45,522 nucleotides of DNA. It comes from an uncultured Acidobacteriota bacterium. GTDB lineage: Bacteria > Acidobacteriota > Vicinamibacteria > Vicinamibacterales > CAVVIG01. This document shows, piece after piece, positions 29,575-45,522 of this stretch (position 1 is its first letter; every line of letters starts with the position of its first letter). The notes below the pieces were generated by a model. That model saw only the letters and a list, made by a program, of their open reading frames with translations, made no database searches and had not been told where the DNA came from. The position numbers were made by a program, and so were the translations under genes. The stretch spans positions 1 through 45,522 of the forward strand of contig CADEDC010000050.1 of NCBI GenBank assembly GCA_902825985.1. Reading direction: 5' to 3'.

Positions 29575-31075
29575 GACCAGTGCGGTCCTCCTCGTCGTGG
29601 ACGATGAGGACGCAGGGCGGTTCGTCAAGGTGCAGACCTTGAGGCGCGCCGGCTATACGGTGTACGAAGCCGCGACCGGCGCCGACGGACTGCGGCAGGT
29701 CGAGTCGCGTTCACCCGACGTCGTCGTCCTCGACGTCAACCTTCCCGACGTCAGCGGGCTCGAGGTGTGCCGGCGGATCCGCCAGCACGCGTTGGCGCCC
29801 CCCGCGATTCAGGTCCTCCAGGTGTCCAGCACGGCCGTCGATGCCAAGGACCGCGTCGCCGGTCTCGACCACGGTGCCGACGTCTACCTGACAGAGCCGC
29901 TGGAGCCGGGCGTCCTCGTCGCGACGGTGCGGGCGTTGCTGCGCGTGCGTCGCGCCGAGAAGGCATTGGCCGAGGCGCTCGAGGGCGAACGGATCGCCCG
30001 TCGCCATGCGGAGGAGGCGACGCGGCTGCGTGACGAGTTCATTGCAACCCTCTCGCACGAACTGCGGACGCCCCTCAACGCCGTCATGGGCTGGCTGTGG
30101 CAGTTGCGGCACTCGTCGCTCGATGCGGCCGCGCAGGCACGGGCACTCGACAGCCTCGAACGCAACGCCCGTCTGCAGGTCCAGCTGATCGGCGATCTGC
30201 TCGACGTGTCGCGGATCGCCAAGGGCAAGCTGCTGCTCGAGTTGAGCCGGGTGGATGTCCTCGCGGTCGTCAACGACGCCCTCGACTCGGTGTCCGCTCA
30301 GGCCGAGCAGAAGGAGCTGACGGTGCAGGTCACCGGCCGGTCGGCGACCGTCATTGCCGATGCCGGCCGGCTGCAGCAGATCGTCACGAATCTGTTGACC
30401 AATGCCATCCAGTTCACCCCACCGAAGGGCAGCATCGCCGTCACCCTCACGGCGGACGGCGATGAGTCCGTGCTCCGCATCACCGATACCGGACTCGGCA
30501 TCAGCGCCGAGTTGCTCCCTTCGGTCTTCGATCAGTTCCGTCAGGGAGCGGGTGGGCTGATGCGCAAGCACGGCGGCCTGGGCCTTGGCCTGGCCGTCGT
30601 CCGCCAGCTGATCGACCTGCACGGCGGTGCCGTGCAGGTGGAGAGCCGTGGGCCGGGGCAGGGGAGCACGTTCATTCTCCGGATCCCGCGAGAGCCGGAT
30701 TCGGCTCAGCCGCCTCTGGACCGGGCCCCGGTGCTTCGCGGCATGCGCGTCGCGATTGTTTCGCAAGAGGCCGAGTACGCGGAGCTGCTCAAGAGCGCGC
30801 TGGAGGCGAGCGGCGCCGACGTTCGGGTCATCGCGCGGGACGATGCGGGGCAGCGTGCGGGCGCCGACTTGGTCCTGACCGAGGGTGCGGCCGGAGAGAC
30901 GACGATCACCGGCGCTGGAGAGCCGCAGCGTGAGCCGTCGCCGCCCAGCCTGCCGATCGACGTCACGATGCGGGCCGCCGACGTCGTCCGGAGCATCGCC
31001 CGCTACGTCCTCGCCCGCCCTGATGCCGGCACGTCCACCGCCTCCGGCGTCCCGGCCTCAGGCACGAAAGGTTGA
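29567..31075 (+). CDS. Receiver-histidine kinase with degenerate C-terminal receiver
   Basis: 502 residues. Receiver 1-125 with Asp56 (VVLDVNLPDVSG); the usual Lys of the YLTKP segment is Glu here (VYLTEPLEPG). A linker helix leads to HisKA with His164 (FIATLSHELRTPLNAVMG), then GHKL ATPase (LLTNAIQFTPPKGSI, DTGLGIS, GGLGLGLAVV). The last 100 residues (MRVAIVSQEAEYAELL...) look like a receiver without the acidic pocket or phospho-Asp. Cytoplasmic. The start is ATG 29567 with SD GGGAGG 6 nt upstream, overlapping the previous gene by 8 nt. It can accept phosphate from, or act beside, the preceding hybrid kinase. Confidence 0.9.
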   Translation: MSETSAVLLVVDDEDAGRFVKVQTLRRAGYTVYEAATGADGLRQVESRSPDVVVLDVNLPDVSGLEVCRRIRQHALAPPAIQVLQVSSTAVDAKDRVAGLDHGADVYLTEPLEPGVLVATVRALLRVRRAEKALAEALEGERIARRHAEEATRLRDEFIATLSHELRTPLNAVMGWLWQLRHSSLDAAAQARALDSLERNARLQVQLIGDLLDVSRIAKGKLLLELSRVDVLAVVNDALDSVSAQAEQKELTVQVTGRSATVIADAGRLQQIVTNLLTNAIQFTPPKGSIAVTLTADGDESVLRITDTGLGISAELLPSVFDQFRQGAGGLMRKHGGLGLGLAVVRQLIDLHGGAVQVESRGPGQGSTFILRIPREPDSAQPPLDRAPVLRGMRVAIVSQEAEYAELLKSALEASGADVRVIARDDAGQRAGADLVLTEGAAGETTITGAGEPQREPSPPSLPIDVTMRAADVVRSIARYVLARPDAGTSTASGVPASGTKG

Positions 31076-31859
31076 GACGTACATGGCGAGCGGGGACACG
31101 GCGCCCCCGTCGAGTCGGTAAGTATGCTGTCGGTCGGCCAGATTGGCGACCGAGCGCGGCTACGTCGTGAATGTGCAGCTTCGATGCCAGCCGGCGAGGC
31201 TCGAGCCCGGCGGCGACCGGTCGGCTCCAAACCACCGGCTACCGACCGGCGTCCAGGAATTGAAGGCTGCGCGCGACTTCTGCCGGACGCTGACCTTTCA
31301 TCGCATGGCAGGACGACTTCTGGGCGGCCGGCGGAAGGCGCCGCGACCCGAATCGCAGAAGATCGCGCCGGAATCTGTTCGCGACCGACAAGTCACGAAA
31401 CTTGCAGTCTCCGGGCACCCGCATGGGTGCCGTCGTCGATGTCTTTGCCCTTCGGGTGTCGGGTGCGTCGGTGATGTTCGTGCGTCAGTGTGGTGCGTGG
31501 CACATGTTGACGCGCCAGGATGGCAAGCTGGAACCGCGTCGCGTCGTACCGGACGAGTACGCGATGGCCCTCATCGAGAGTTACGCGGTCTTCGGGCCGA
31601 CCGAACAACGGCGCTGCGCCACCCGCCGTGAGGTCGCCGACCTCGCCCTCCCTCGCGCGACCATCCGCTGAACACCTGCATCACTGCCGAGAGGCTGGAG
31701 CCTGCACGCCATGGTTCGGCACTGGTGTCCTCGTGGCACGTCGGGTACCTGGCAGTAGTCGCTGGCGGCCCTTGGGATTAGTATTGCCGAGTTCCATGGC
31801 AGGGTCGCGGCTCGTCCCCTTGTGACCTGCCCGGCACCAACCTCCGACAGGACGCACTC
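31076..31859. other. 784-nt gap between kinase genes
   Basis: Apart from the short ORF listed separately, this stretch shows no recognisable gene. It includes the palindrome CGACCGGTCG near 31215 and a TAGTAT hexamer at 31779-31784, about 75 nt before the next gene, which could be its -10. A perfect TGGCACG at 31734-31740 lacks the -12 half of a sigma-54 promoter. Confidence 0.5.
31423..31671 (+). CDS. Short hypothetical protein
   Basis: 82 residues (MGAVVDVFALRVSGASVMFV, ending LALPRATIR), no family recognised. Third codon positions are GC-rich as in real genes of the window, and the composition (FVRQCGAWHMLTRQDGKLEPRRV) looks protein-like. There is no clear Shine-Dalgarno, and a TTG 21 nt upstream could also start it. 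Coding status is uncertain. Confidence 0.4.
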   Translation: MGAVVDVFALRVSGASVMFVRQCGAWHMLTRQDGKLEPRRVVPDEYAMALIESYAVFGPTEQRRCATRREVADLALPRATIR

Positions 31860-34694
31860 ATGCCGCTCCACTACGAAGTTGCCCGGCGGCCCCCCCACGC
31901 GAGGATTGTGACGCGGGGGGCGGCGACGCCGGATGAGTTCCGTGCGATTGTCCAAGCACTCCTCGCCGACCCGCGGGTGGGTCGCGGGATGCCGGTGCTG
32001 TTCGACGCCCGTGAGAAAGCAGCCGGGTCTGACACGGCCGCGCTGCCCCAGCTCGTGGATGCGTGCGGGGAGCTCATGCCGAGCCATCCGGTCGGCCTCC
32101 TGGTGGCACCTGGCGCGGCATTCGCCGCAGCGCAGCAGCTGCGACAACTGCGGCCGGAACTGCGCCTGTTCACGGCGCCAAGCGCCGCGCTCCGGTGGGT
32201 GGACGGTGGGTCAGACGAGGCCGACGCCGACGGCGGCACGCCGCCGGAGGTGCCGCGCGACGCGGCGGCGCACCGCGATCGACCGTGCACCGTCGAGCCG
32301 CCCTTTTTGCCCCGAGCAGTCCATGTGTCAGGCGCTGCCGAGGAGACGTACCTCCTCGCCCTCCAGCTCGAGGCTGCCGGGCTCGAACTCGCGGTCCTGC
32401 CGGTCGCAACTGCCGCGACGTTTGCCGGCGCCATGGCGTCGGACGTGACACTCGTCATCGCGGATCTGCCTCTGCCGTGGCATGGGGCGGCAGACGATCT
32501 CAGCGTGATCCAGCGGACGCGGCCCGATGTGCCGGTGGTGTTCCGATGGGGCGGTGCCGGCACCTGGAGCGTCGAGGAAGGGGGCGCCCAGCTGGGCCGC
32601 CTGATACGGCAGGCGCTGGCCCTGGCACCTGAGAGCGAGCAGACGCCCGAAGAGCGTCGCCGGGTCCTTCAGGAGGTCGTGCGCTATCAGAGTGCGCACC
32701 TGCGGCTGGGCCGCCTGGACCCGTGGGAGTCCGACGACGCCCTCAGACAGGCGCTCGAGATCATGGCGGACACGGCGCTCGTCGAGCGGGTGGGCGTCTG
32801 GCGCTTGCCGGTCGACAGCGATCGGCTGGAATGCGAGGCGGTGTTCGAGCGGTCCATCCGTCGGCACGGAACGGGCGGGCACCTCGCACTCAATGCCGCC
32901 TATCGTCGCGCGATCGAGGAGGCGACGTTCGTCGCCGCGCACGATGCCGTACGCGACCCGCGCACGAGCGCGTTTGCCAGCGACTATCTGGTTCCGCACG
33001 GGATCTCGTCGATGCTGGACGCGCCGATTCGCTCGCGCGGCCGGGTGGCCGGCATCGTCTGTCTCGAACACGTTGGCCCGCCGCGGCGGTGGAACGTGAT
33101 CGAGCAGTGCGCGGCGGCAGCGTTCGCGGGAGTCGTTGGCCGGATCTTCGATGCCAGGGAACGGCGTCGGATCGACGAAGAGTGGCAGGAGTCCAGGCGG
33201 CTCGACCTCGTCGGTCGGATGGCAGCCGCGGTCGCTCACGATTTCAGCAATCTGGCCACCGTCATCGTCGGTTCGTCCGGGGCGCTGCTCGATGACGCGC
33301 CGCGGGACGACCCGCGTCGCGAAGCGCTCGTGGCCATCCACGATGCCGGGCTGTCGGCCGCGAGCCTCGTCCGCCAGCTGCGTGCGTACACGATGGCGAA
33401 GCGCACCGAGGCGCAGCCGCTCGAGTTGCGACGCGAGCTGCGGGCCCTGCAGCCGCTGGTGCAGCGGCTCCTCGGAACGACGATTCAGCTCGTGGTCGAC
33501 GTCGGCGAACATGACCTGTGGGTGGTCATGGATCCGGCCCAGTTCCAGGCGGTGGTCCTGAACCTGGCGGCGAACGCACGGGACGCTCTGACGCGCGGTG
33601 GCACCTTCGGCCTGCATCTCGACGCACCGTTGCTGCCGTCCGGTGTGCTGCCAGGTGACGCGACCGTGCGCCTGCGGGCCATCGACGACGGCATCGGGAT
33701 TCCGCCGGCAGTGCTGCCGAACATCTTCAAGCCGCTCTTCAGTACCAAGGGAGAGGGGGGAACCGGCCTCGGACTGTCCAACGTGCGGGCGATGGTGCAC
33801 CAGGCAGGCGGCACCGTGTCGGTCGAGAGCACCGCTGGTGCCCGCACCTGTTTCTCGGTGCTGCTCCCACGAACCGTCGCGCCGGCGCCGCCCGCGCCGG
33901 TGGCCATCGCGGGGGGTCTCGTGCCGCCAGCGTCGGTACCGGGCACGGTGTTGATTGTGGATGACGATCCGGCGGTCTGCGGGTTGATGAAGCGCCTGGC
34001 GGTGCGGCTCGGCTGGACCGTCGAGGCCGTGACCTCGCCGAAAGCCGCGATCGACCGCGCGCAGGCGCTGGGGACCGGGCTCGGTTTGATCGTCACGGAC
34101 CTGACCATGCGGGGCATGTCCGGCATCGAGCTGATTCATGCCGTGCGAGGCAGACATCCCGACCTGCCAGCGCTGGTGGTGACCGGGCACGCCGATGTCG
34201 AGGCGCTGTCCGACGGCACCCTGCCGCCGGCCGTCGAAGTGCTCGCCAAGCCATTCGACGCCGCGACGTTCGTCGCCCGGCTGCGTCACATGGTCAGACC
34301 GCAGTCGCCGCCGGTCGTCGAGCCGCCGGTGGCGGCACACGAGGACGTCACGGTCGTGGCCGTCGGCAGGACGGAGGAACTGCGCCAGCTGCTGACCATC
34401 GTCCTGACGACCGCGCGCTACCGTGTTGCCGTGGCCGAGGACAACGAGCGGGCGTGCGCGTTGACCGAGGGGAACCGTGCAGTGTCGGCGGTCGTGCTCG
34501 ACGGTGATCGGCCGGAGCAGCTGGCGGCGATAGTCAGCCGGTTGCGGCGGTTGGAATGGGCGCCTGGCATCGTCCTGGCCGGCGAGGCGCAGGAGATCGA
34601 GGCGGGTGCCGCCGTCGCCGTCCTGCTCAAACCGTTCGCGCCGTCGGAACTGCTCGGGGCGATCCAGGCGGTGTTGCGACTCCGGACTGTCTGA
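31860..34694 (+). CDS. Large hybrid histidine kinase with pseudo-receivers and GAF domain
   Basis: 944 residues, cytoplasmic. Order: an N-terminal SpoIIAA/STAS-like segment (1-110, HYEVARRPPHARIVTRG, VLFDAREKAAG), a receiver-like domain (about 150-260, VIADLPLPWHG), a GAF domain (about 285-435), HisKA with His460 (VAAVAHDFSN-type box AAAVAHDFSNLATVI), GHKL ATPase (LNLAANARDAL, DDGIGIPP, GTGLGLSNV), a true receiver (VLIVDDDPAV, phospho-Asp in IVTDLTMRG, Lys in LAKPF), and a last receiver-like domain lacking the acidic pair (VVAVGRTEE) but keeping LDGDRPE and LLKPF. The N-terminal STAS-like part and the position make a link with the stressosome genes plausible. Confidence 0.85.
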   Translation: MPLHYEVARRPPHARIVTRGAATPDEFRAIVQALLADPRVGRGMPVLFDAREKAAGSDTAALPQLVDACGELMPSHPVGLLVAPGAAFAAAQQLRQLRPELRLFTAPSAALRWVDGGSDEADADGGTPPEVPRDAAAHRDRPCTVEPPFLPRAVHVSGAAEETYLLALQLEAAGLELAVLPVATAATFAGAMASDVTLVIADLPLPWHGAADDLSVIQRTRPDVPVVFRWGGAGTWSVEEGGAQLGRLIRQALALAPESEQTPEERRRVLQEVVRYQSAHLRLGRLDPWESDDALRQALEIMADTALVERVGVWRLPVDSDRLECEAVFERSIRRHGTGGHLALNAAYRRAIEEATFVAAHDAVRDPRTSAFASDYLVPHGISSMLDAPIRSRGRVAGIVCLEHVGPPRRWNVIEQCAAAAFAGVVGRIFDARERRRIDEEWQESRRLDLVGRMAAAVAHDFSNLATVIVGSSGALLDDAPRDDPRREALVAIHDAGLSAASLVRQLRAYTMAKRTEAQPLELRRELRALQPLVQRLLGTTIQLVVDVGEHDLWVVMDPAQFQAVVLNLAANARDALTRGGTFGLHLDAPLLPSGVLPGDATVRLRAIDDGIGIPPAVLPNIFKPLFSTKGEGGTGLGLSNVRAMVHQAGGTVSVESTAGARTCFSVLLPRTVAPAPPAPVAIAGGLVPPASVPGTVLIVDDDPAVCGLMKRLAVRLGWTVEAVTSPKAAIDRAQALGTGLGLIVTDLTMRGMSGIELIHAVRGRHPDLPALVVTGHADVEALSDGTLPPAVEVLAKPFDAATFVARLRHMVRPQSPPVVEPPVAAHEDVTVVAVGRTEELRQLLTIVLTTARYRVAVAEDNERACALTEGNRAVSAVVLDGDRPEQLAAIVSRLRRLEWAPGIVLAGEAQEIEAGAAVAVLLKPFAPSELLGAIQAVLRLRTV

Positions 34695-34701
34695 AGGGCG
34701 A

Positions 34702-34727
34702 CGCCGGCGGGCCGCGACGCGCCGGCG
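34702..34727. terminator. Hairpin between convergent genes
   Basis: CGCCGGCG at 34702-34709 and 34720-34727 pair as an 8-bp stem around a 10-nt loop. It lies between the stop of the 944-residue kinase and the stop of the 48-residue protein on the other strand. No T-tract. Confidence 0.4.
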
Positions 34728-34729
34728 GC

Positions 34730-34876
34730 TCAGTGTCTGCGGACCATGCGCAGCATCTTGACGTTCAGGACGATGAAGCGGATGAACTGCCACGCCAGAT
34801 TGGTCCGCCAGTATTTCGTCCAGCGGGTGGGCACGGGCGGATAGTAGCTCTGCTCGAACGGCTTGCGTATCGCCAT
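34730..34876 (-). CDS. 48-residue protein directly behind sulfide:quinone oxidoreductase
   Basis: A short ORF: MAIRKPFEQSYYPPVPTRW, then TKYWRTNLAWQFIRFIVLNV, then KMLRMVRRH. It has SD AGGTGGG 5 nt before the ATG and starts 9 nt after the sqr stop, so translation right after sqr is very likely. The middle is an amphipathic to hydrophobic helix flanked by Arg/Lys and rich in Trp/Tyr/Phe, as expected for a peripheral membrane anchor. I do not recognise a family. A role as a small subunit or membrane anchor of the quinone reductase is an inference from position. Confidence 0.7.
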   Translation of the reverse strand: MAIRKPFEQSYYPPVPTRWTKYWRTNLAWQFIRFIVLNVKMLRMVRRH

Positions 34877-34885
34877 GGCGCCCAC

Positions 34886-36343
34886 CTATTCGGGAACGGC
34901 GATCCACAGCGGGTTCGCCTTGGCCTTGTACAGGAACGCATAGTGCAGCGCGTGCTTGATCCAGTGGCCGGCCAGGCCGATCTCCCCGGAGGTGTAGCGC
35001 AGATCGCGCCCGGTGTCCGGGTACTTGTTGAAGTCCGGCACAATCGGGAACACGGTCATCGAGACCGCGGTCCCGTGCACGAGGTCGGCTCCGGCCGACG
35101 CGATGCACGCGGCGCCCATATGGGCCATCGACGCCTTGCGCGTCGGCGCCTCTGCCTTGCCGGTCATCATGTCGACGATATTGAGTGCGACATGACGCGC
35201 CATCACGCCTGACGGCATCCCCGTGCGCGGCGGCGTCGGCGAGATCGGCGTGCCCGTGACGCTGGTCATCGGCTTGCTGATGGGATGGGGTGGCGCGAAC
35301 GCGATCCCGACGGCGAAGATGTTCGTGTACCTGGGGCTCTGGTACGTCTCAGGCCAATCCTCCGGTGCCCACGCGTCGAACGCCTTCTTGCGATAGTCGC
35401 CGTCCACGAACATGAACTGGCTGGGCGCGAACAGATCGGCGGTGATGTCGCGGCCATCGCGCTGAAAGGCGCGGAGGCCGACGCCGGTGAACGGCGGCAG
35501 CAGCATCGCGAAGTCATGGGTGATGCTGGCGTTCTCGCCGTCCAGCGTCTCGTAGCTGGTTTCGCCGGGCGCCACCTCGCGGACGTGCGCCCGGGTAATC
35601 CATTCGACGCCGCGTTCCGTGAACAGCGACTCGGTGAAGACACGGCTGTGCGTCACGTAGCCGCCGCGGCGCAGGAACATGCCGCCCATGCCGAAGTCGC
35701 CGAGCTCCGCCTCGTTCGAGATCCACACGAGACGAGCCCTGTCCCGCACGCCCTGCCGCCGCAGCTCGTGCTCCAGATTGAAGAGGTATTCGAACGCTGC
35801 CCCCTGACAGGTGCAGCTGCCGTGACCGGTCCCGATCAGGAACGTCTGCCGGTCGCCGCGCTTCATGCGTTGGATCGACTGCTGCAGCGCCGCCGCGGTC
35901 TGGCTGGCGTGGCCGTAGGTACACACCGAGAGGCTGTGCGCCTCCGGACCGAGGCCTTTGGTTGCGCCGAAGTTCAGCCGCGGGCCTGTCGCGTTGATCA
36001 GGAAGTCATAGTCGAGGTCGGCGGTCTGGCCCTGTCGGTCCGGCGACGTGTACTCGATGGTGACGTGGGGTGCCGGGCGATCGGCCGAGCCGTCCGGATG
36101 CAGGCTCACGGCCCTGGCTTGATGAAACGGGATCCCGAGCTTCTCGTAGACCGGCGCGAGTGGGAACGTCACCTGCTCCGGCTTCATGAACCCGGTTCCC
36201 ACCCAGATGTTGGACGGAATCCAGTTCCACTGGCTGTTGGGCGAGACGACGACCACCTCGTGTGGCGACGGCAGCCTGTGACGCGCGTGCATCGCAGCGG
36301 TGTGGCCGGCGATGCCCGCGCCAAGAATCAAGAGACGACTCAT
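34886..36343 (-). CDS. sqr: Sulfide:quinone oxidoreductase-type flavoprotein
   Basis: 485 residues, two-dinucleotide-binding FAD enzyme. GAGIAGHTAAMHAR is the FAD site (residues 8-21), NATGPRLNF the second FAD contact. Cys177 and Cys179 (GSCTCQGAAFEY) plus Cys413 (GAACIAS) are candidate redox cysteines; most SQRs use two or three. Long loops (SPNSQWNWIPSNIWVGTG, the GDFGMGGMFLRRGGYV block) follow the SQR/FCSD family. It should oxidise sulfide and reduce quinone at the inner membrane. A C-terminal amphipathic region (GEIGLAGHWIKHALHYAFLYKAKANPLW) is the expected membrane contact. Start at ATG 36343, SD AAGGACGG. Operon with the 48-residue protein. Confidence 0.88.
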   Translation of the reverse strand: MSRLLILGAGIAGHTAAMHARHRLPSPHEVVVVSPNSQWNWIPSNIWVGTGFMKPEQVTFPLAPVYEKLGIPFHQARAVSLHPDGSADRPAPHVTIEYTSPDRQGQTADLDYDFLINATGPRLNFGATKGLGPEAHSLSVCTYGHASQTAAALQQSIQRMKRGDRQTFLIGTGHGSCTCQGAAFEYLFNLEHELRRQGVRDRARLVWISNEAELGDFGMGGMFLRRGGYVTHSRVFTESLFTERGVEWITRAHVREVAPGETSYETLDGENASITHDFAMLLPPFTGVGLRAFQRDGRDITADLFAPSQFMFVDGDYRKKAFDAWAPEDWPETYQSPRYTNIFAVGIAFAPPHPISKPMTSVTGTPISPTPPRTGMPSGVMARHVALNIVDMMTGKAEAPTRKASMAHMGAACIASAGADLVHGTAVSMTVFPIVPDFNKYPDTGRDLRYTSGEIGLAGHWIKHALHYAFLYKAKANPLWIAVPE

Positions 36344-36445
36344 GGAACCGTCCTTCTGTACGTGAGATGCGGTTCCGTCCGATTGGTGACGCGCCGCCGA
36401 GCGCCTCTTCGATCGCTTCAATGACGGCTCGTGCAGCGGTCAGCA

Positions 36446-37159
36446 TTACCCGGACTGGTCGGCGCGGTCCGGCTTCGCGGTCGCCCAGCGCCGGCCGATG
36501 CGGCGCGCCTTCAGCCCGTCCAGCGCGCGCCTGGCGACGATGGGGAAGACTCCCAGGAGCGCGAAGGCGAGCAACAACCCGGGCGAGAGCCGCCAGGCGC
36601 CGAGTTGCGTGCCGGCATAGACGAACACCGCCGTGCCGGGCAGCATGCCGAGCTGGCTGACCCAATAGAACGTTCGGGGCGGCAGCGGCGTGAGTGCCAT
36701 CGCCAGGTTGACCAGCCAGAACGGGAAGACCGGCACCAGACGGATCGCAAACAGGTAGAAGGCGCCGTCGCGCTCCACCCCGGCCCGGACGCCGCTGAGC
36801 CGATTCGCGAAGCGCCGCTGCACCCAGTCGTGCGCGATGAAGCGGGCCAGCATGAAGGCCAGCGTCGCGCCAATCGAGGAGGCGAACGACACGAGCAGCA
36901 GCGCCGGCAGAAAGCCGAAGACCGCGCCACCGGCCAGTGTCATGGCCGCCGCACCTGGCAGCGACAGGGCGGTGACGGCGACATACGCGATGAAGTACGC
37001 CGCCGCCGTGCCAGCGGGATGGCGGGTCCGGTAGGCGACGAGCGCACCCCCCCGAGCGATCAACCGGTCGAAGGCCAGCTCGTGGTGGAGGCCGAGCGCG
37101 AAGAACGCGATCGCGAAGCCAAGAACCAGGGCGAGCGCACCGAGGCGGGCCTTGTTCAT
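36446..37159 (-). CDS. TVP38/TMEM64 (DedA-like, VTT domain) membrane protein
   Basis: 237 residues with about six membrane segments. The VTT signature is clear: LSLPGAAAMTLAGGAVFGFLPALLL, SSIGATLAFMLARFIAHDW and VFPFWLVNLAMALTPLPPRTFYWVSQLGMLPGTAVFVYAG. Such proteins are linked to lipid scrambling or small-molecule efflux and are often found next to flavin disulfide reductases and SQR-like genes. It is upstream of sqr (102 nt) on the same strand. Start ATG 37159 with SD GGGAGCGG. Exact function unknown. Confidence 0.87.
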   Translation of the reverse strand: MNKARLGALALVLGFAIAFFALGLHHELAFDRLIARGGALVAYRTRHPAGTAAAYFIAYVAVTALSLPGAAAMTLAGGAVFGFLPALLLVSFASSIGATLAFMLARFIAHDWVQRRFANRLSGVRAGVERDGAFYLFAIRLVPVFPFWLVNLAMALTPLPPRTFYWVSQLGMLPGTAVFVYAGTQLGAWRLSPGLLLAFALLGVFPIVARRALDGLKARRIGRRWATAKPDRADQSG

Positions 37160-37301
37160 CCGCCGCTCCCGGCCGGCCGGGCGGCCGGACCGACGCTGGC
37201 GCCCAGAGGGTCCCGATCGAGCTCGCATCGCCCTGCCATCGCTGTCATCCTAGCAGCAGGACCGAACGGCGTGGGCCGATGCGAACCGGCGCGGCTGCGG
37301 G

Positions 37302-37307
37302 TACCAT
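37302..37307 (+). promoter_or_regulatory. Possible -10 element of the ynj-like operon
   Basis: TACCAT, 5 nt before the GTG start at 37313; weaker match than the other cases in this window. It would give a leaderless transcript. No -35 seen. Confidence 0.3.
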
Positions 37308-37312
37308 GTGGC

Positions 37313-38566
37313 GTGCACATCCGCCAGCCACGTCCGGGCGTCGCCGTCCTGGTTCTCGCGCTGTGCGGCAGCGTGGCGTGTGGCGCGCCGTCGGACGACG
37401 GGACGCCGACGACCGCGGCCGCCGTGGCGGCAGCGCCGTGGGCCGACGTGGTGGCGCGCGCGCGAGGGACGACGGTCATCTGGCGGATGTGGCGCGGCGA
37501 CCCGGCGATCAACCGCTACGTCGACGGCTGGGTCGCGCCCCGCATGCGGTCGCTCTACGGCGTCGAGGTGCGGGCCGTCGAGGGGCAGAGCGCGGAGCTC
37601 GTGAACGCGCTGGTCACCGAGCGTGAAGCCGGCGGCGCCCGCGCCGGCACGACGAGCCTGATGTGGATCAACGGCGAGACCTTCGCGCAGATGCGGTCGG
37701 AACGGCTGCTGTCCGGGCCGTGGGCCGACCGCCTGCCGAACGCTGCGACCATCGACCGGCAGTCGCCGATCATCAGCCGTGATTTCGAACAGCCGACCGA
37801 CGGCTTCGAGTCACCGTGGGGCATGGTGCAGTTCGCCCTGATCTACGATCCGGCACGGACGCCGGCGCCGCCGCACTCGATCCCGGCGCTCGCCGCCTGG
37901 ATTCGGGCCCATCCGGGGCGCTTCACCCACGACCAGCAGTTCACCGGGATGACGTTCCTGAAGACGCTGATGTACGGCCTGACGGGCGGCGTCGAACGGT
38001 TCCAGGGCGGCTTCACCGACCACCGCTATCGCACGGGCCGCGAGCATCTGTTTGCCTGGCTCGCCTCGGTGCGGCCGTCCTTCTGGCGGCAAGGCACGAC
38101 CTATCCACCCGATGTGGCGGCGATGCACCGCCTGTTCGCGAACCGGGAAATCGACTTCACCATGTCGAACAACCAGAACGAGGTCGTGACCAAGGTGCGC
38201 CAGGGAATCCTGCCCGCCGGGTCGCGTGCCGTGCTGCTCGACGAGGGGACGATTGCCAACGCACACTACGTCGGGATTCCGTTCAACGCGCCGAATCCCG
38301 CCGGCGCGATGGTCCTGGCGAACTTCCTGCTGTCGCCCGAGGCACAGGTCGAGAAGCAGCGCGGCGACGTCTGGGGCGACGGTACCGTGCTCGATCCGGC
38401 GTTGCTGCCGGCGCCGTGGCCGGCCCGGTTCGCAGCCGCCGTCGCCGATGCCGCCGCGCTGCCGCACGACGAACTCGCGCGGAAGGCCCGGCCCGAAGTG
38501 CATCCCGACTACCATGCCAGACTGCTCGACGACTGGCGCCACTCGATCCGTCAGAACGCCCCCTGA
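37313..38566 (+). CDS. ABC transporter substrate-binding protein, YnjB-like
   Basis: 417 residues. Short signal with a Cys (GVAVLVLALCGSVACGAP), so secreted or lipid-anchored. The rest is a type-2 periplasmic binding fold of the YnjB (COG4134) kind: TTVIWRMWRGDPAINRYVD, LMWINGETFAQMRSE, DFEQPTDGFESPWGM, RFTHDQQFTGMTFLKTLMYG, FTMSNNQNEVVTKVRQG and VGIPFNAPNPAGAMVLANFLLSPEAQ. YnjB-type proteins resemble thiamine- and polyamine-binding proteins, but their ligand is not known. Start GTG 37313 lies just behind a TACCAT hexamer and has no Shine-Dalgarno. It overlaps the first permease gene by one base (TGATG). Confidence 0.87.
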   Translation: MHIRQPRPGVAVLVLALCGSVACGAPSDDGTPTTAAAVAAAPWADVVARARGTTVIWRMWRGDPAINRYVDGWVAPRMRSLYGVEVRAVEGQSAELVNALVTEREAGGARAGTTSLMWINGETFAQMRSERLLSGPWADRLPNAATIDRQSPIISRDFEQPTDGFESPWGMVQFALIYDPARTPAPPHSIPALAAWIRAHPGRFTHDQQFTGMTFLKTLMYGLTGGVERFQGGFTDHRYRTGREHLFAWLASVRPSFWRQGTTYPPDVAAMHRLFANREIDFTMSNNQNEVVTKVRQGILPAGSRAVLLDEGTIANAHYVGIPFNAPNPAGAMVLANFLLSPEAQVEKQRGDVWGDGTVLDPALLPAPWPARFAAAVADAAALPHDELARKARPEVHPDYHARLLDDWRHSIRQNAP

Positions 38567-39390
38567 TGCGCCGCGCCCTTCCCGCGATGCTGCTGATCAC
38601 GCCGGTGGCCATCGGTGCCGCCTATTCCGCTGCCGCCGCGGTCGGGCTCGCCGGCCCCGGTGCCCGCGGATTCACCCTCCGACCGACGTTGGCGGTGCTG
38701 TCGGCGCCAGCCACCTGGCGCAGCGTCGCCTGGACGGTTGCCGTCGGGTCGGTCGCGACGGCGATCGCCGTCGCCCTCGCCTGCTGTGCGGCGCGCTGGC
38801 TGTTGCGACGGGCGTCGTGGCAGCGGCTCGCCGTCCTGCCGATGGCGGTCCCTCATGTCGCTGCCGCGCTTGCCGCGCTGCTGCTCGTCAGCCAGAGTGG
38901 ACTGCTGTCGCGGCTCGTCTACGCCGCCGGCCTCACCCAGGAGCCGGCCGGCTTTCCGGCGCTGGTCTACGATGCCGCCGGCGTGGGGCTCGTCTTCGCG
39001 TTCGTCTGGAAGGAGTTTCCCTACCTTGTGCTCACGGCGATTGCGGTGCTGGCCACCGGGACGAACGAACTCGAAGAGGTTGCACGCACGCTTGGCGCGA
39101 CTCCCCGCCAGGCGTTCTGGCGGGTCACGTGGCCGTCGCTGTGGCGCGGGATGGCACCCGCCGTGCTAGCGACGTTTGCCTACCTGGTCGGACAGTACGA
39201 GATGCCGGCGCTGTTGGCACCGAGCGATCCGCTCGCCCTGTCGCTGCTGACCTACGAGCGATCGGTCGATCCGGTGCTGGCACGTCGTGCCGAGGCGCAC
39301 GTCCTGGGACTGCTCGCGCTCGTCCTCACGGCCGCGGTGGTCCTCGCCCACGCGCGCTGGTCGTACGGCGGGGAGGAGGGGCGGTCGTGA
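38566..39390 (+). CDS. ABC transporter permease 1 (YnjC N-half-like)
   Basis: 274 residues, about six membrane helices, binding-protein-dependent permease. The EAA loop reads EEVARTLGATPRQAFWRVTWPSL. It matches the first half of the fused E. coli permease YnjC in position; here the two halves are separate genes. Starts at ATG 38566 overlapping the previous stop, ends with a GTGA overlap into permease 2. Confidence 0.87.
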   Translation: MRRALPAMLLITPVAIGAAYSAAAAVGLAGPGARGFTLRPTLAVLSAPATWRSVAWTVAVGSVATAIAVALACCAARWLLRRASWQRLAVLPMAVPHVAAALAALLLVSQSGLLSRLVYAAGLTQEPAGFPALVYDAAGVGLVFAFVWKEFPYLVLTAIAVLATGTNELEEVARTLGATPRQAFWRVTWPSLWRGMAPAVLATFAYLVGQYEMPALLAPSDPLALSLLTYERSVDPVLARRAEAHVLGLLALVLTAAVVLAHARWSYGGEEGRS

Positions 39391-40169
39391 GGCCCCGGTC
39401 ACCGCGCTGGTTCCTGCCGCTGCTGGCCGTATGGATTGCCGCACCGATCCTGATGCTCGGCCTGCGCGCCGTCGCGCGCGGCTGGCCGTTCCCCGGGATC
39501 GTGCCGGTCGGCGGTGTCGACGCCGGTGCGTGGCTCGGCTTCGCCGACGTCCGGCTGCTCTCGGCGCTCGTCATGAGCATGGGACTGGCGCTGATCACCG
39601 GTGCGGCGAGCTGCGGGCTCGGCTTCGGCATCGCTGGGGCCATGGTGGACACGTCCCGCCGTTCCCGTACCCTGGCGATGGCACTGGCGCTGTTCTCGGT
39701 CGTCGCGCCTCCGATCGCGCTGGCCGTCGGTCTGCAGGTGGCGATGGTGGCCCTGCGCCTGAACGGAACCGTCACCGGTGTCTGGCTCGCGCACCTGGTT
39801 CCGGCGACCGGATACCTGACCCTGTTCGCCGCCGGCGTCTTCGGTGCGTTCGACTTCTCGCTGCACGACGAAGCGCGAACGCTTGGCGCGACGCGCTGGC
39901 AGGTGTTCACGCGGGTCACGCTGCCGTTGCTCGGCCCGCGGCTCGCCGAAGGCGTGCTGCTCGGTGGTCTCGTGTCGTGGGGACAGGTGGCGCTCACCGC
40001 GCTGGTCGGTGGTGGCGTCGTCCGCACGCTGCCGGTGGAACTGCTGGCGTTCGTCCGCGCCGGAGACGACCAGTTGGGGGCGGCGGCGGCGCTCGTGCTC
40101 ACGCTTCCACCGGGGCTCGCACTCGGTCTCCTGCATGCGGCGACCCGTCGATCGGGAGCCGCCCTGTGA
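39387..40169 (+). CDS. ABC transporter permease 2 (YnjC C-half-like)
   Basis: 260 residues, about six membrane helices, with an EAA loop DEARTLGATRWQVFTRVTLPLLGP. Heterodimer partner of permease 1 in the inner membrane. GTG 39387 start has SD GGGAGGAGGGG and overlaps the preceding stop; its own stop overlaps the ATPase start as GTGA. Confidence 0.87.
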   Translation: MRPRSPRWFLPLLAVWIAAPILMLGLRAVARGWPFPGIVPVGGVDAGAWLGFADVRLLSALVMSMGLALITGAASCGLGFGIAGAMVDTSRRSRTLAMALALFSVVAPPIALAVGLQVAMVALRLNGTVTGVWLAHLVPATGYLTLFAAGVFGAFDFSLHDEARTLGATRWQVFTRVTLPLLGPRLAEGVLLGGLVSWGQVALTALVGGGVVRTLPVELLAFVRAGDDQLGAAAALVLTLPPGLALGLLHAATRRSGAAL

Positions 40170-41230
40170 GCGGGGCGCGTCCCGGCCTGCACGTGACCGG
40201 CGCCCGCGTCGCATTCGGCGCGAAGACCGGGCTCGAACAGATTGCACTCGACGTGGCGGCCGGAGAACGGCTGGCCCTCCTCGGCCCGTCGGGTGGCGGC
40301 AAGACGTCGCTGCTGCGCGCGCTGGCGGGCCTCGGCGGTCTGCTCGCCGGCACGGTCCGGGTGGGCGACACCGACGTCACCGCCTTGCCGCCGGAGCACC
40401 GCGGCATCGTCTACATGCATCAGGCGCCGTCGCTGTTCCCGCACCTGTCGGTTCTCGACAACGTCGCTTTTCCGCTGGAAGTGCGTGGCATCGCCCGCGC
40501 GGCCGCCCGGCGCCGGGCAGCGGCCCTGCTGCGACACGTCCGGCTCGACGATGTGGCGTCGCGCGCTCCCGGCTCGCTGAGCGGCGGCCAGCGGCATCGT
40601 GCGGCTCTGGCACGGGCGCTGGCGGCAGAGCCGCGCGTCCTCCTGCTCGATGAGCCGTTCTCGTCGCTCGACCCGGAGCTGCGCGCCGACGTCCGCACCG
40701 CGGTCGTCGACATCCTGGCCGAGCGCAGCGGTCCCGCCGTCGTGCTGGTGACGCACGACGTCGACGAGGCGGCCGCGGTCGGCGATCGCATCGCCATCCT
40801 GCTCGATGGCCGCCTCGCGCAGGCGGGTGCGCCGTTCGAGGTGCTGGCACGCCCGGCGTCACTGGCGGTCGCCCGCTTCCTCGGGGTGCCGAATCTCCTG
40901 CGCGGACGTCGCCACGACGACGGCCTCGTCGTCTCGGCCCTCGGGGAGTGGCGGTCGCCTGGCCCTGCCGGCGCCGTGCACGTGACGATTCGCCCCGGCG
41001 CCGTGCGCGCCCGGCGGGACGCCGCCGGCCGGATTCCGGCGGTCGTGACGGCGGTCGTCGATCGGGTCGGTGCGACATGGCTGCGCGTCCGGATCGGCGA
41101 CGAGGACCTCACCGTGACCAGCGACGGCGCCGGGCGGGCGTCGCCGGGTGACACCGTCTCGCTCGTCGTCGATGGCGACGACGCGCACGTCATCGAGGAG
41201 GCGCATCCGCGGTCCCGCGATGTTCGATGA
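40166..41230 (+). CDS. ABC transporter ATPase (YnjD-like with extra C-terminal domain)
   Basis: 354 residues. Walker A LLGPSGGGKTSLLRALAG, Q-loop YMHQAPSLFPHLSVLDNV, signature GSLSGGQRHRAALARALA, Walker B VLLLDEPFSSLD and switch VTHDVDEAAAVGDR. Residues about 240-354 form a TOBE-like regulatory domain (VTIRPGAVRARRD, DRVGATWLRVRIGDEDLTV), which the shorter E. coli YnjD (about 217 residues) lacks. It powers the two permeases. Overlaps the next gene by 11 nt. Confidence 0.92.
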   Translation: MSGARPGLHVTGARVAFGAKTGLEQIALDVAAGERLALLGPSGGGKTSLLRALAGLGGLLAGTVRVGDTDVTALPPEHRGIVYMHQAPSLFPHLSVLDNVAFPLEVRGIARAAARRRAAALLRHVRLDDVASRAPGSLSGGQRHRAALARALAAEPRVLLLDEPFSSLDPELRADVRTAVVDILAERSGPAVVLVTHDVDEAAAVGDRIAILLDGRLAQAGAPFEVLARPASLAVARFLGVPNLLRGRRHDDGLVVSALGEWRSPGPAGAVHVTIRPGAVRARRDAAGRIPAVVTAVVDRVGATWLRVRIGDEDLTVTSDGAGRASPGDTVSLVVDGDDAHVIEEAHPRSRDVR

Positions 41231-41831
41231 TTACATCCGTCGTCTGAAGGACCGGCTGCTCGCACCGGTGGCGCGGCTGCTCGGCGCGCAGGTGTCGCCG
41301 AATGCCGTGACGTGGCTGGCCTTCGCGGCTGGCCTCGGCAGCGCGGCAGCGGCGCTGACCGGGCGTCACGGCCCCGGTCTCGCGCTGTGGGCGCTCAATC
41401 GCATCCTGGATGGACTCGACGGTACGCAGGCGCGCGTTCACGGCCGTCATTCGGCCTTCGGCGCCTACCTCGACATCGTGCTCGACTTCGTCGTCTACGC
41501 CGCCATCCCCGCGGCGCTGGCGTTCCATGCCGGCTCGCCAGCGGCTCTCCGTGCCGTCGTCGTCCTCATGGTCTCGTTCTACGTGAACGCCGCGTCGTGG
41601 ATGTACCTGGCCGCGCTGCTCGAACAGCGGCAGCAGGGGGCGGCGTGGCGCGGTGAGTTGACCACGGTCACCATGCCGCGCGGGCTGATCGCGGGCACCG
41701 AGACGGTGATCGCCTACAGCCTCTTCTTCCTCATGCCGTCACGGCTGCCGACGCTGTTCACCGCAATGGCCGGGCTCGTGTTCGTCAACGTCGCCATGCG
41801 CCTCTGGTGGGCGAGACGGCGACTCGGTTGA
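41220..41831 (+). CDS. CDP-alcohol phosphatidyltransferase (YnjF-like)
   Basis: 203 residues, inner-membrane enzyme. The CDP-OH-P signature D-G-x2-A-R-x8-G-x3-D-x3-D is complete: DGLDGTQARVHGRHSAFGAYLDIVLD split across residues about 64-90. Several membrane helices surround it. It joins a CDP-activated lipid to an alcohol head group. Being the last gene of an importer operon, as ynjF is in E. coli, suggests that the imported solute is its alcohol substrate; that is an inference. ATG 41220 lies inside the end of the ATPase gene. Confidence 0.88.
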   Translation: MFDDYIRRLKDRLLAPVARLLGAQVSPNAVTWLAFAAGLGSAAAALTGRHGPGLALWALNRILDGLDGTQARVHGRHSAFGAYLDIVLDFVVYAAIPAALAFHAGSPAALRAVVVLMVSFYVNAASWMYLAALLEQRQQGAAWRGELTTVTMPRGLIAGTETVIAYSLFFLMPSRLPTLFTAMAGLVFVNVAMRLWWARRRLG

Positions 41832-41840
41832 TGCCGGCGA

Positions 41841-41854
41841 CGCGACGCGTCGCG
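41841..41854. terminator. Perfect palindrome between convergent genes
   Basis: CGCGACGCGTCGCG, 14 nt, extended by GGCG...CGCC on both sides with mismatch. It fills most of the 31 nt between the ynjF-like stop and the TonB receptor stop. No T-tract. Confidence 0.35.
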
Positions 41855-41862
41855 CCGCCAGG

Positions 41863-44202
41863 CTAGAACGTGAGTTGCAGCCCGAGGCGCACCCCGCGTG
41901 GCAGGGCGGGGTGTGTGTGGAGGTCGTCGACGCCCTGCGCGGGTTCGTCGGGCAGGCGTGAGGTGTAGTAGTAGTCGATGTCGGCCACAGCCGCGTCGAA
42001 GATGTTGAACAGCTCGAGCACCAGCCGTGCCCTCGCGGAGGGACGATAGCCGACCTCGCCGTTCCACAGCGTGGTGCTCCTCGACGTGACGCTCGCATCC
42101 TCGATGAGCGGACGGGGACCAAAGTGGCGGACCCGGATGCTGCCGAACATCAGCTGCCTCGGCTCGACCGTCACGCCGGCCGCGATGACCCGGTCCAGCG
42201 CGCCAGGGATGTACCGGCCCACCGGATCATCGTCTCTGAACCGGGCGCGCGACAGCGCCAGGTCGGCGTCGACCGTCAGCCACGAGCGCAGCCGGGCGTA
42301 GTTGGTCCACTCGAGGCCGAGACGCCGGCTGGGACGACCTGCCTCAGTCGTGCCGGCGTCGCCGACGAACAGCAGTTCAGAGTCGAGCCCGAGATACCAC
42401 AGTGCCACCGTCGACTGCAGCCCCGGGATCCGCACGGTTCGCACACCGACTTCGGCGCCCCTGGCTCGCACCAGGGGAGTGACCGCCGGTGCCGGGTCGC
42501 CTGTCGCCGGATCGACCCGAATTGCCGCACCACGTGCGTCATTGCTGTGGAAGCCCATGCCACTGCTGGCGTAGACCTCCGTGCCCGACCACGGTCCGAA
42601 CGCCGCCATGAACTTCGGACTGACCAGCGCCGCCGTTCCGCTGTTCGAGTTCAGGGCGTTGTCCGACCCGACATCGAACTGGTAGAAGTCGCCGCGGAGA
42701 CCGAGCGTCGTGCGGACGAACCGCGCCCATTCGATCTCCGACTGAGCGAAGATGCCGCTCATCGTCTGACCGACGCGGTCTTCGCGCGTCGTCGACAGTC
42801 GCTGGCGGCCTTGCGTGTGGTACAGGCCGACCGGCCGCAGCCAGTCGCGACGGACACTGAGGCCGATGGCGCTCTCGGCGTGCCGTTCGAAAAAATGCCC
42901 GAGTCGACGATAGGCGACGCGGCCGCCCGCCGTCAGCCGCCGCTCGGCCTGTTCGAACTGATCGCCGCGTTCGGGATCGTCGAGGAAGTAGGTGAAGTTC
43001 GAGAAGAGGTTGAGGCTGTTCCTCAGGACGTAGGCTGTCGCGCGGACCGACGCCTCACCAAGCGGACGCTGGAACTCGGCGGTCACGCTCTGACGATTCG
43101 CCTGCCCGCCATCCGTCGAGTCGAGATTGCCGAACCGTGAAATCAACCCATCCGCGATCGCGCGGATGGCGACCTGGTCGGTCGAACTCCAGTCGGCCCA
43201 GTAGCCCATTCCCGTGAGCGAGAAACCGTTCCGGTTGGAGCCGTGGCTGTAGCGCAGCACGGTGTTGAACTTGCGGAAGTCGTCCGGCCGCGTCCATGGA
43301 CCGTCGCTGCGCCCCAGTTCGATGGCGGCGAGCACGGTGCCGCCGCCGACGTGTGGCGAGGCCGCGGCGAAGAGGCGCGCCCAGCCCTGGTTGCCGCCGT
43401 TGACCCGCAGCATCGGACGATCGAGCCGGTTGACGTAGTTGATGTTGGCGGCGCCAGCTGCCGAGAAGTCGCCTTCGTCGGCGAAGTACGGCCCCTTCTT
43501 GTACTGTACGCCGCTCACAAGCTCCGGGATGAGGAAGCTGATGTCCGAGTAGCCGTGGGCGTGCGCGCCGGTTGGGGTGTTGACCGGCACGCCGGCGACG
43601 GTGGTGGAAAAGTCGGTGCCGTGATCGAGGTTGAAACCGCGGAGATAGTACTGGTTCGCCTTGCCCTCACCACTGTGCTGGCTGGTAATCATGCCGGGCA
43701 CGGTTTCGAGGACCTCGCCGGCGCGCATGACCGGGCGCGCCTCGAGTTGCGCCGCGGTAATCGCGCCTTGACTCGCCGTCGTGGCGATGCCCACCAGGTT
43801 CTCCGCCGGGCTCTCGATGTCGGCCACGTTCCGGAACGTGTTGGTGCCGGTCACCATCACATCGGCGCTCAGGGTCAGCGTCAGCACCAGATCCTGGGTC
43901 ACGCTGTCGCCGCCGCGGACGGTGACCAGGCGGCGGACGACGTTGAAGTCGAGGAGGCGAAACGTCAGCTCCGCGCTGCCCGCCGCCACTCGATCAAAGG
44001 TGTAGCGGCCGTTCACGTCCGTGCTCTCGGTATGCTCGGCGGCGGCTACGACCAGGTCGATGCGGACGCCTGGCAGTGGATCGCCCAACTGATCGACGAC
44101 GCGACCAGCGATCCGGCCGGTCGATTGGGCGCTGACCAGCGTCGTCAGCGCGGAGAACAGGAGGAACAGGGCAGCGGCGGCGACGCTCGGTCTCTGACGC
44201 AT
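41863..44202 (-). CDS. TonB-dependent outer-membrane receptor
   Basis: 779 residues: signal peptide (AAAALFLLFSALTTLVSAQS), a carboxypeptidase-regulatory-like beta domain (GRIAGRVVDQLGDPLPGVRIDL ... GRYTFDRVAAGSAELTFRLL), the plug (VETVPGM-type motif VLETVPGMITSQHSGEGKANQYYLRGFNLDHGTDF split over residues about 160-195) and a 22-strand barrel ending in LGLQLTF, with terminal Phe. It imports a scarce substrate such as a siderophore, corrinoid, metal complex or sugar; the ligand cannot be told. Start ATG 44202 removes a Cys/Arg-rich upstream stretch that is not a signal. No TonB or ExbBD beside it. Confidence 0.93.
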   Translation of the reverse strand: MRQRPSVAAAALFLLFSALTTLVSAQSTGRIAGRVVDQLGDPLPGVRIDLVVAAAEHTESTDVNGRYTFDRVAAGSAELTFRLLDFNVVRRLVTVRGGDSVTQDLVLTLTLSADVMVTGTNTFRNVADIESPAENLVGIATTASQGAITAAQLEARPVMRAGEVLETVPGMITSQHSGEGKANQYYLRGFNLDHGTDFSTTVAGVPVNTPTGAHAHGYSDISFLIPELVSGVQYKKGPYFADEGDFSAAGAANINYVNRLDRPMLRVNGGNQGWARLFAAASPHVGGGTVLAAIELGRSDGPWTRPDDFRKFNTVLRYSHGSNRNGFSLTGMGYWADWSSTDQVAIRAIADGLISRFGNLDSTDGGQANRQSVTAEFQRPLGEASVRATAYVLRNSLNLFSNFTYFLDDPERGDQFEQAERRLTAGGRVAYRRLGHFFERHAESAIGLSVRRDWLRPVGLYHTQGRQRLSTTREDRVGQTMSGIFAQSEIEWARFVRTTLGLRGDFYQFDVGSDNALNSNSGTAALVSPKFMAAFGPWSGTEVYASSGMGFHSNDARGAAIRVDPATGDPAPAVTPLVRARGAEVGVRTVRIPGLQSTVALWYLGLDSELLFVGDAGTTEAGRPSRRLGLEWTNYARLRSWLTVDADLALSRARFRDDDPVGRYIPGALDRVIAAGVTVEPRQLMFGSIRVRHFGPRPLIEDASVTSRSTTLWNGEVGYRPSARARLVLELFNIFDAAVADIDYYYTSRLPDEPAQGVDDLHTHPALPRGVRLGLQLTF

Positions 44203-44349
44203 GGGTCCTTGGGCTCGCGAGTGGCGACACCTGCAGCGTACGGCGTCGCCGGCCGACCGGACGTGTGGCAAGTTGTCGCACGTACCCGGGTGGACCGACG
44301 GCGGGGTGGCTGCCGCCCGGGCCGGACGCCATCCGGTCGCGGGCTCGCG

Positions 44350-44355
44350 TATGAT
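44350..44355 (+). promoter_or_regulatory. -10 element before the PAS protein gene
   Basis: TATGAT, with a predicted start near 44362 and a 35-nt leader carrying SD GGGAGGG before GTG 44397. No clear -35. Confidence 0.4.
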
Positions 44356-44396
44356 CGGGCGTCACGCCGGCGGACGGTGTGCAGGGAGGGCGCGTC

Positions 44397-45002
44397 GTGG
44401 CCGATCAGGTACCGGACAGCTGTCCGCGCGTGCGCTACCGAATCAGCGCCGAAGATCGTCTCATCGAGGTCAACGACGGTTGGTCGACATTTGCCCGGGC
44501 CAATGGCGGCAGTCTGCTGCGCACGACGGTGATCGGCCGCCCGATCTGGCAGTTCATCTCCGATCCGACCACCGTCTATCTCTATCAGAGCATGGTCCAT
44601 CGCGTCCGCCAGACGGGGACACCGACGCGCTTCTGCTTCCGCTGCGACGGCCCGGCACGGCGACGTCTGTTGTCCATGCAGATCTCGCATACGGCGGCTG
44701 GGGCGGTGGAATTCGCGGTCGATCCGGTTCGTGAGGACGGCCGTCCCGCCCTGCTGCTGCTCGACGCCGCCAGCCCGCGGGGCGACCGCATGCTGACGAT
44801 GTGCGGCTGGTGCGCCCGGGCTCGCATCTCGGATGCTCGTTGGGTCGAGCTGGACGTCGCCGTTCGCGATCTCGGTTTGTTCCGCGAGCCGCCGCTGCCG
44901 CGACTCTCGCACGGGATTTGTTCGAGCTGTGCCGAGCAGGTGATCGCCGGTCTGGGCGGCAACTCGACCGCGACCACTCCCGTGACGCTCGGGGCGTTCT
45001 GA
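44397..45002 (+). CDS. PAS-like protein with four-cysteine C-terminal module
   Basis: 201 residues, soluble. Residues 1-125 follow a PAS-like pattern (YRISAEDRLIEVNDGWSTFARANGG, GRPIWQFISDPTTVYLYQSMVHRVRQTG, FRCDGPARRRLLSMQISH). The C-terminal part has MCGWCARARIS and, 50 residues later, HGICSSCAEQV, two CxxC pairs able to hold a zinc. Similar stand-alone PAS/Cys proteins occur in many environmental bacteria, without a known function. GTG 44397 chosen over the in-frame GTG at 44379 because CAGGGAGGG lies just before it. Divergent from the TonB receptor gene and convergent with a kinase gene. Confidence 0.75.
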   Translation: MADQVPDSCPRVRYRISAEDRLIEVNDGWSTFARANGGSLLRTTVIGRPIWQFISDPTTVYLYQSMVHRVRQTGTPTRFCFRCDGPARRRLLSMQISHTAAGAVEFAVDPVREDGRPALLLLDAASPRGDRMLTMCGWCARARISDARWVELDVAVRDLGLFREPPLPRLSHGICSSCAEQVIAGLGGNSTATTPVTLGAF

Positions 45003-45066
45003 ATCGCGCTGACGCGCCCTCCGGCAGTGACGACGCTCTCGCGAACGCCGCTCGTCGCCGCGTGCG

Positions 45067-45522
45067 TCAGGCGGGACCGCGGGTGTGGCGCAGGAGTGCC
45101 GTCATCACCGCCACGACTTCCGCCGGTTCGACCGGCTTCGCAATGTGCATGTCGAATCCCGCCGCGAGCGCGTCGAGGCGGTCCTGCGTGCGGGCATAGG
45201 CGGTCACCGCGATTGCCGGTGTCCGGCGTCGCTGGGCGGCAATCTCGTCGGCGCGCAGCGCCCGGAGAAAAGCATAGCCGTTCTCGCCTGGCATGCCGAT
45301 GTCGCTGACGATCAGGTCGATCGGTTCCGTCAACCGTTCGCGCGCGGTGGCGGGTGTGTCGGCATCCAGCACGCGCGCCCCGTTGGCTTCGACGATGGCC
45401 CGCAGAAGCTGTCGCGCATCGGCGTCATCATCGACGACGAGAACGGTGAGAGCCGCCAGCCGCGTGCCGTCGGCGATGACGGCGAGCGGCGCGTCGCCGG
45501 GCGGGGGCTGGAGCGGTTCGCC
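45067..45522 (-). CDS. C-terminal receiver of a signalling protein, cut by the window edge
   Basis: 151 residues are visible, 5' end outside the window. A Pro-rich linker (GEPLQPPPGDAP) leads to a complete receiver domain: LTVLVVDDDADARQLL (acidic pair), LIVSDIGMPGENGYAFL (phospho-Asp), VTAYART and HIAKPVEPAEV (Lys). The linker is like those after the ATPase of hybrid histidine kinases, so the missing part is probably a kinase; a chemotaxis-like fusion is the other option. Confidence 0.82.
   Translation of the reverse strand, partial: GEPLQPPPGDAPLAVIADGTRLAALTVLVVDDDADARQLLRAIVEANGARVLDADTPATARERLTEPIDLIVSDIGMPGENGYAFLRALRADEIAAQRRRTPAIAVTAYARTQDRLDALAAGFDMHIAKPVEPAEVVAVMTALLRHTRGPA

Follow-up and report, generated by a model that had tools for sequence, protein, structure and literature searches.

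Why should an ATP-binding cassette (ABC) importer share an operon with an enzyme of phospholipid head-group attachment? The question is raised by five overlapping genes at positions 37313-41831 of contig CADEDC010000050.1 from an uncultured Acidobacteriota bacterium, whose whole stretch of 45,522 nucleotides is here called the window. Their products are relatives of YnjB, YnjC, YnjD and YnjF of Escherichia coli, encoded by orphan genes of a model organism with no assigned substrate or product. A preliminary description of this DNA proposed that the imported solute is the acceptor, alcohol or phospho-alcohol, of the transferase. In the present analysis the YnjB importer and YnjF are very probably functionally linked, and attachment of the imported solute by YnjF as a lipid head group is the best single explanation, with a probability of about 0.4.

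The operon and its phosphotransferase

The first gene (37313-38566, + strand, GTG start) encodes a 417-aa solute-binding protein (PRK11622), a probable lipoprotein or bearer of a signal peptide, that matched Pfam SBP_bac_8 with 51.7 bits and NCBIfam NF008633 (YnjB) with 408.5 bits (cut-off 203), its residues 26-411 aligning with positions 19-395 of the 397 in the profile; it is a genuine member of the YnjB family. Two ABC permeases follow on the same strand, of 274 aa (38566-39390) and 260 aa (39387-40169, GTG start), with 42.6 and 41.7 bits against BPD_transp_1 (PF00528), and E. coli YnjC is matched by the first in its N-terminal half and by the second in its C-terminal half (BLASTP E = 2e-4 and 3e-6). 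The YnjD-like ATPase (40166-41230, +, GTG start, 354 aa) matched ABC_tran with 108 bits, is 37% identical to YnjD and carries a C-terminal addition, earlier called TOBE-like, that proved to be TOBE_2 (PF08402) by a marginal pass (21.5 bits, cut-off 21). The order of binding protein, permeases and ATPase is that of a YnjBCD importer with the permease in two pieces. The last gene (41220-41831, +, ATG start) encodes a 203-aa protein with 42.4 bits against CDP-OH_P_transf (PF01066, cut-off 22), which aligned over its full length with E. coli YnjF (27-30%, BLASTP E = 1e-13) and has in common with it a GL..GTET motif near the C terminus. Coordinates, Pfam and NCBIfam agree with the preliminary description on the identity and order of the five genes and on their mutual overlap, by 1, 4, 4, and 11 base pairs (bp) successively.

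YnjF is a distinct subfamily of cytidine diphosphate (CDP)-alcohol phosphotransferases. As defined here, its members scored 141-281 bits with a YnjF profile, while every other CDP-alcohol protein scored reached 84 bits at most; the 281 bits of the window protein are partly by construction, and E. coli YnjF, left out of the profile, obtained 185 bits. The motif DxxDGxxAR...GxxxDxxxD is complete in the window protein, D64, D67, D85, and D89 being D1-D4, and the residues invariant in 19 YnjF homologues are D64, D67, G68, A71, R72, G81, D85, D89, E161, and R194. The AlphaFold model (mean predicted local confidence, pLDDT, 91.8) found its best solved-structure matches among phosphatidylinositol-phosphate (PIP) synthases, AF2299 and IPCT-DIPPS, with Z 17-20.

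Recurrence of the pairing and its partner genes

The preliminary description had named a genome-neighbourhood survey as the check on the pairing, and lack of recurrence outside a few genomes as the outcome that would count against it. The contigs of GTDB species were scanned, 557 YnjB relatives were confirmed and the best 80 taken with their flanks, giving with the window and E. coli 82 YnjB loci, a sample picked by likeness to the window, the proportions of which are not population frequencies. Neighbouring open reading frames of all loci were clustered and then searched with the YnjF profile. A YnjF-subfamily gene was present in 19 of the 82 loci, distributed over eight phyla (Acidobacteriota, Gemmatimonadota, Planctomycetota, Chloroflexota, Actinomycetota, Bacillota, Spirochaetota, and Pseudomonadota), in varying orders and orientations; the pairing is thus widespread.

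The two genes also follow each other across genomes. Among 297 Acidobacteriota, the phylum of the window, YnjB was detected in 5 genomes and YnjF in 3, two of which hold both, linked. In 301 Chloroflexota genomes YnjF occurred in 23, YnjB above the cut-off in 22, and 17 genomes held both where 1.7 were expected (Fisher p = 1e-18, genomes being counted as independent and kinship ignored); 12 of these 17 pairs lie within 10 kb and five do not. The Sutcliffiella family (18 genomes) has YnjF in 14 and YnjB in 13, every one of the 13 YnjB genes lying within 6 kb of YnjF, and in its sole YnjF-only genome, which has no YnjB, a truncated ATPase gene that adjoins the intact ynjF (L106:7268-8533) is a relic of the operon. 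Some YnjB genomes without a linked YnjF hold one elsewhere, and the distances of YnjB and YnjF are correlated (Mantel r 0.50, 4 of 10000 permutations). Deep conservation of the pairing, as earlier claimed, is therefore upheld by linkage in eight phyla and by co-occurrence even where the genes are unlinked. As a separate observation, one genome of the window's order without any YnjB holds a YnjF-subfamily gene (L095, G054:C16:67729-68328, 171 bits) in a frame of 683 aa.

VTT and flavoprotein genes are usual companions of YnjF, the former being found in 13 of the 19 YnjF loci vs. 6 of the 63 others (p = 1e-6). In the window, a YdjX/YdjZ-like DedA/VTT membrane protein (36446-37228, - strand; VTT_dom, PF09335, 84.7 bits, cut-off 33.9) is divergent from the operon and a probable partner of it, and the SQR-like pyridine-nucleotide/quinone flavoprotein encoded downstream of the VTT gene (34886-36421, -, Pyr_redox_2) is a possible one; its match to SQR type III was weak (40 bits, cut-off 525), and relatives have another type of flavoprotein at this position. 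Both genes, which lie outside the span previously described, stand head-to-head with the operon at 84 bp, and the intergenic region delimited by the two divergent starts (37229-37312, 84 bp) is likely a shared promoter region; no Rfam match was found in 30000-45522, this region included. Chloroflexota operons (L107, L108, and L110) run YnjF-VTT-(flavoprotein)-YnjB-permeases-ATPase, in L091:1861-4020 the fusion of a VTT domain with a MerA/lipoamide-dehydrogenase-like flavoprotein is clear, and Bacillota loci L084 and L092 have an extra LPG_synthase_TM/flippase-like protein. COG0398 DedA proteins have been described as putative flippases of phospholipids, with PF07992/PF02852 domains as their most frequent fusion partners (PMC10127716).

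Further flavoproteins were seen around these loci. VTT and flavoprotein signals lie on or around single long reading frames in L033:1947-4241 and L070:5779-8247. A geranylgeranyl-reductase/halogenase-like FAD protein neighbours YnjF or importer genes in Chloroflexota (L071:10146-11852, L109:5371-7089, and L110:5466-7217), and a TIGR03169 (Nterm_to_SelD) flavoprotein stands near YnjF at L015:4349-5638 (-, 333.5 bits, cut-off 310), which L101:9595-10716 and L079:16151-17218 resemble, by eye or by a Pyr_redox_2 match only. The TonB-dependent receptor with CarboxypepD_reg directly downstream of the window operon and convergent to it (41863-44271, -) was rejected as a partner, having no homologue in other YnjB loci; the TonB receptors of loci in Bacteroidota and Gemmatimonadota, by contrast, are conserved. 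Also near the operon is a 944-aa GAF/histidine-kinase/response-regulator hybrid (31860-34694, +), overlapped by a long antisense reading frame that is probably spurious.

The imported solute and the acceptor of YnjF

The five genes probably form a single co-inherited functional module, importer and YnjF serving one lipid pathway, and salvage of a head group is a plausible form of it. YnjB, the two permease subunits and YnjD would perform high-affinity uptake of a scarce, polar, hydroxyl-bearing solute, which YnjF, a membrane enzyme with the PIP-synthase fold, would join to CDP-diacylglycerol to give a phosphatidyl lipid. The YdjX/YdjZ-type DedA protein might then spread the lipid across the membrane, and the associated flavoprotein might act in a redox reaction on the solute, on the lipid or on a thiol/quinone partner. 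The complete scheme, a widespread salvage of environmental alcohols into a possibly redox-active phospholipid by ABC importer, YnjF-type synthase, DedA flippase and disulfide/quinone-type flavoprotein, is a less probable extension of the head-group proposal.

As to the chemistry of the acceptor, the PIP synthase MtPIPS requires both R155 and R195 for the use of inositol phosphate (PMC4634129). In a hidden Markov model alignment (about 23% identity) R195 corresponds to the invariant R194 of YnjF, while R155 corresponds to T162 in the window protein and to Thr, Gly or Ala in the family, never to Arg, so that the window YnjF does not have the two acceptor-phosphate arginines of PIP synthases. Because one of the two is missing, a free alcohol is the likelier acceptor, and would more likely than a phospho-alcohol be the form in which the solute reaches YnjF; the phospho-alcohol of the preliminary description is correspondingly weakened.

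Half of the YnjB loci tell a different story. In 41 of the 82 the importer is accompanied by DUF2064, radical-SAM, APH- or methylthioribose-kinase-like kinases, nucleoside hydrolase or two unassigned families, and a TonB receptor is frequent. Neither this second type of locus nor the other forms a single clade in the YnjB tree. Since the second-type loci carry other small-molecule enzymes in place of YnjF, importers of the YnjB family feed more than one pathway. The APH- and methylthioribose-kinase-like kinases next to the importer where YnjF is absent point to a solute bearing a free hydroxyl, which fits the hydroxyl-bearing solute proposed above. Strict exclusion of YnjF from second-type genomes was considered and rejected, as the genomes of L054 and L059 hold an unlinked YnjF.

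Some features of the second-type loci stand apart from the window. In Bacteroidota (L081, L086, L042, L080, and L090) genes for a nucleoside hydrolase and a methylthioribose-kinase-like kinase come after the YnjB importer, and radical-SAM, DUF2064 and TonB receptor genes are often present as well; such loci may serve to salvage a 5-modified nucleoside. The adjacent genes L051:3223-3852 and L051:3761-4498 represent two families that recur beside YnjB importers, with homologues in 10 loci; neither matched anything in Pfam or NCBIfam at E 0.001. Arsenosugar phospholipids were considered on account of the DUF2064 (TIGR04282-like, 116 bits, cut-off 134) and radical-SAM neighbours and were dropped for the window, as those genes never occur in YnjF loci and the radical-SAM representative matches no arsenosugar family.

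Several observations weigh against the head-group reading. No linked YnjF was found in any of the 41 second-type loci (p = 2.5e-7), and lipid synthesis is not the sole use of YnjB-type importers. YnjF in turn occurs away from YnjB, with a YnjF-VTT-flavoprotein cluster on a separate contig in L100 and YnjF beside a flavoprotein in L111, in a genome with no YnjB match; in E. coli ynjF lies outside the ynjBCD operon. The co-occurrence counts ignore phylogeny. The structure of the binding protein gives a near tie across ligand classes: with its AlphaFold model (pLDDT 93.9) the VIA ranking placed carbohydrate binders on top (Z 28.6), ahead by about one and with other classes within about 1.5 Z, a marginal preference for sugar and polyol binders that speaks for the head-group reading, and at the head of the Foldseek list were proteins that bind phosphonate, iron, polyamine and hexose-phosphate. 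The identity of solute and acceptor, as claimed in the preliminary description, is thus not established.

Part of this evidence favors the strongest alternative, that the genes are linked and the solute is a different one. YnjF, DedA protein and flavoprotein would produce or alter a lipid of the membrane in the service of envelope or redox homeostasis, and what YnjBCD brings in would be another nutrient or cofactor under common regulation, for instance a compound resembling a nucleoside, a sugar or a thiol. YnjF with VTT or flavoprotein genes and no nearby YnjB, the enzymes of the second-type loci, and the ferredoxin-domain, AhpD-like and sulfurtransferase proteins of the E. coli cluster are all in its favor, and it ranks close behind, itself somewhat short of an even chance. 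Against it, the tight co-inheritance of YnjB and YnjF, even where unlinked, is more simply explained by a flow of substrate, as the head-group reading proposes.

The remaining alternatives fare much worse. YnjF could be a relative of PIP or archaetidylinositol-phosphate synthases and the importer could bring inositol or inositol phosphate, given that its nearest named families and structures are these synthases and AF2299/DIPPS and that R194 is invariant. However, the counterpart of MtPIPS R155 is never Arg and the window YnjF scored far below the cut-offs for PIP synthases (46.7 vs. 170 bits, NF045883) and archaetidylinositol-phosphate synthases (59 vs. 180), which leaves inositol improbable. 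Thiamine had been named beforehand as a ligand that could not be a head group, and import of thiamine or a precursor, with YnjF an incidental neighbor, has in its favor a weak likeness to thiamine kinase (41 bits, cut-off 299) among the APH kinases encoded close to some YnjB genes. No sign of thiamine was found and it was rejected as the solute: there is no thiamine pyrophosphate riboswitch in 30000-45522 or in 17 YnjB loci, and permeases and ATPase fall far below the ThiP/ThiQ cut-offs (ThiQ 158 vs. 298 and 157 vs. 245), so that this option is very improbable. Least probable of all, hitch-hiking, i.e., adjacency by chance or positional conservation only, would account for the many YnjB loci without YnjF and is already contradicted by recurrence in eight phyla with varied gene order and orientation, and by the co-occurrence of unlinked genes.

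Comparison with known systems

Co-inheritance of importer and YnjF in eight phyla, in the company of a putative flippase and flavoproteins, unites orphan genes, among them those of the uncharacterized E. coli K-12 locus, in a single testable hypothesis, at stake in which is a new membrane lipid or a route of head-group salvage. In the literature searched there was no functional paper on ynjF, a word absent from it, and YnjB appeared only in mentions of expression (BaeR, FNR) or pangenomes.

In E. coli MG1655 ydjXYZ-ynjABCD is followed by ynjE, and ynjF lies beyond ynjE on the opposite strand; selD is also in the ynj region. Among the operons listed for the FNR regulon is ydjXYZ-ynjABCD (PMC3688515). 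The parallel with ynjB-C-D-F drawn in the preliminary description holds for the family relations and not for the placement of ynjF, as E. coli ynjF is not co-transcribed with ynjBCD. Likewise, the split permease was correctly recognized, but the 511-aa fusion YnjC of E. coli is the exception and two separate permeases, as in most relatives, the usual state. Both loci have a YnjB-family binding protein, a YnjC/YnjD-like transporter, a YnjF-subfamily phosphotransferase and YdjX/YdjZ-type VTT proteins, E. coli carrying ydjX and ydjZ beside ynjABCD. The window differs in the split permease, in TOBE_2 on the ATPase, in ynjF as the last gene of the operon and in a divergent pair of one VTT gene and an SQR-like flavoprotein gene, and ynjA, ynjE and ydjY were not found in it.

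With the COG0398 DedA/flavoprotein pairs (PMC10127716) the loci share the partnership of VTT protein and flavoprotein, fusions such as that of L091 included, the window VTT protein being placed by its PF09335 match; a link to YnjBCD or YnjF is not mentioned in the consulted passages of that paper. The mycobacterial and Renibacterium PIP synthase (PgsA1) and AF2299/IPCT-DIPPS are like YnjF in fold, catalytic motif and one acceptor arginine. YnjF differs from them in the absence of the second acceptor arginine, in an identity of about 20-23%, in the genetic link to an importer and in E161 within a family-specific GTET/ERTEG motif.

Rhizobia import choline through ChoXWV and convert it with the phosphatidylcholine synthase Pcs. 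The window YnjF and the transporter subunits are far below the cut-offs of Pcs (19.5 vs. 300 bits, NF045887) and ChoXWV, but the logic proposed for the window would be the same, with an imported free alcohol joined to CDP-diacylglycerol by a CDP-alcohol phosphotransferase.

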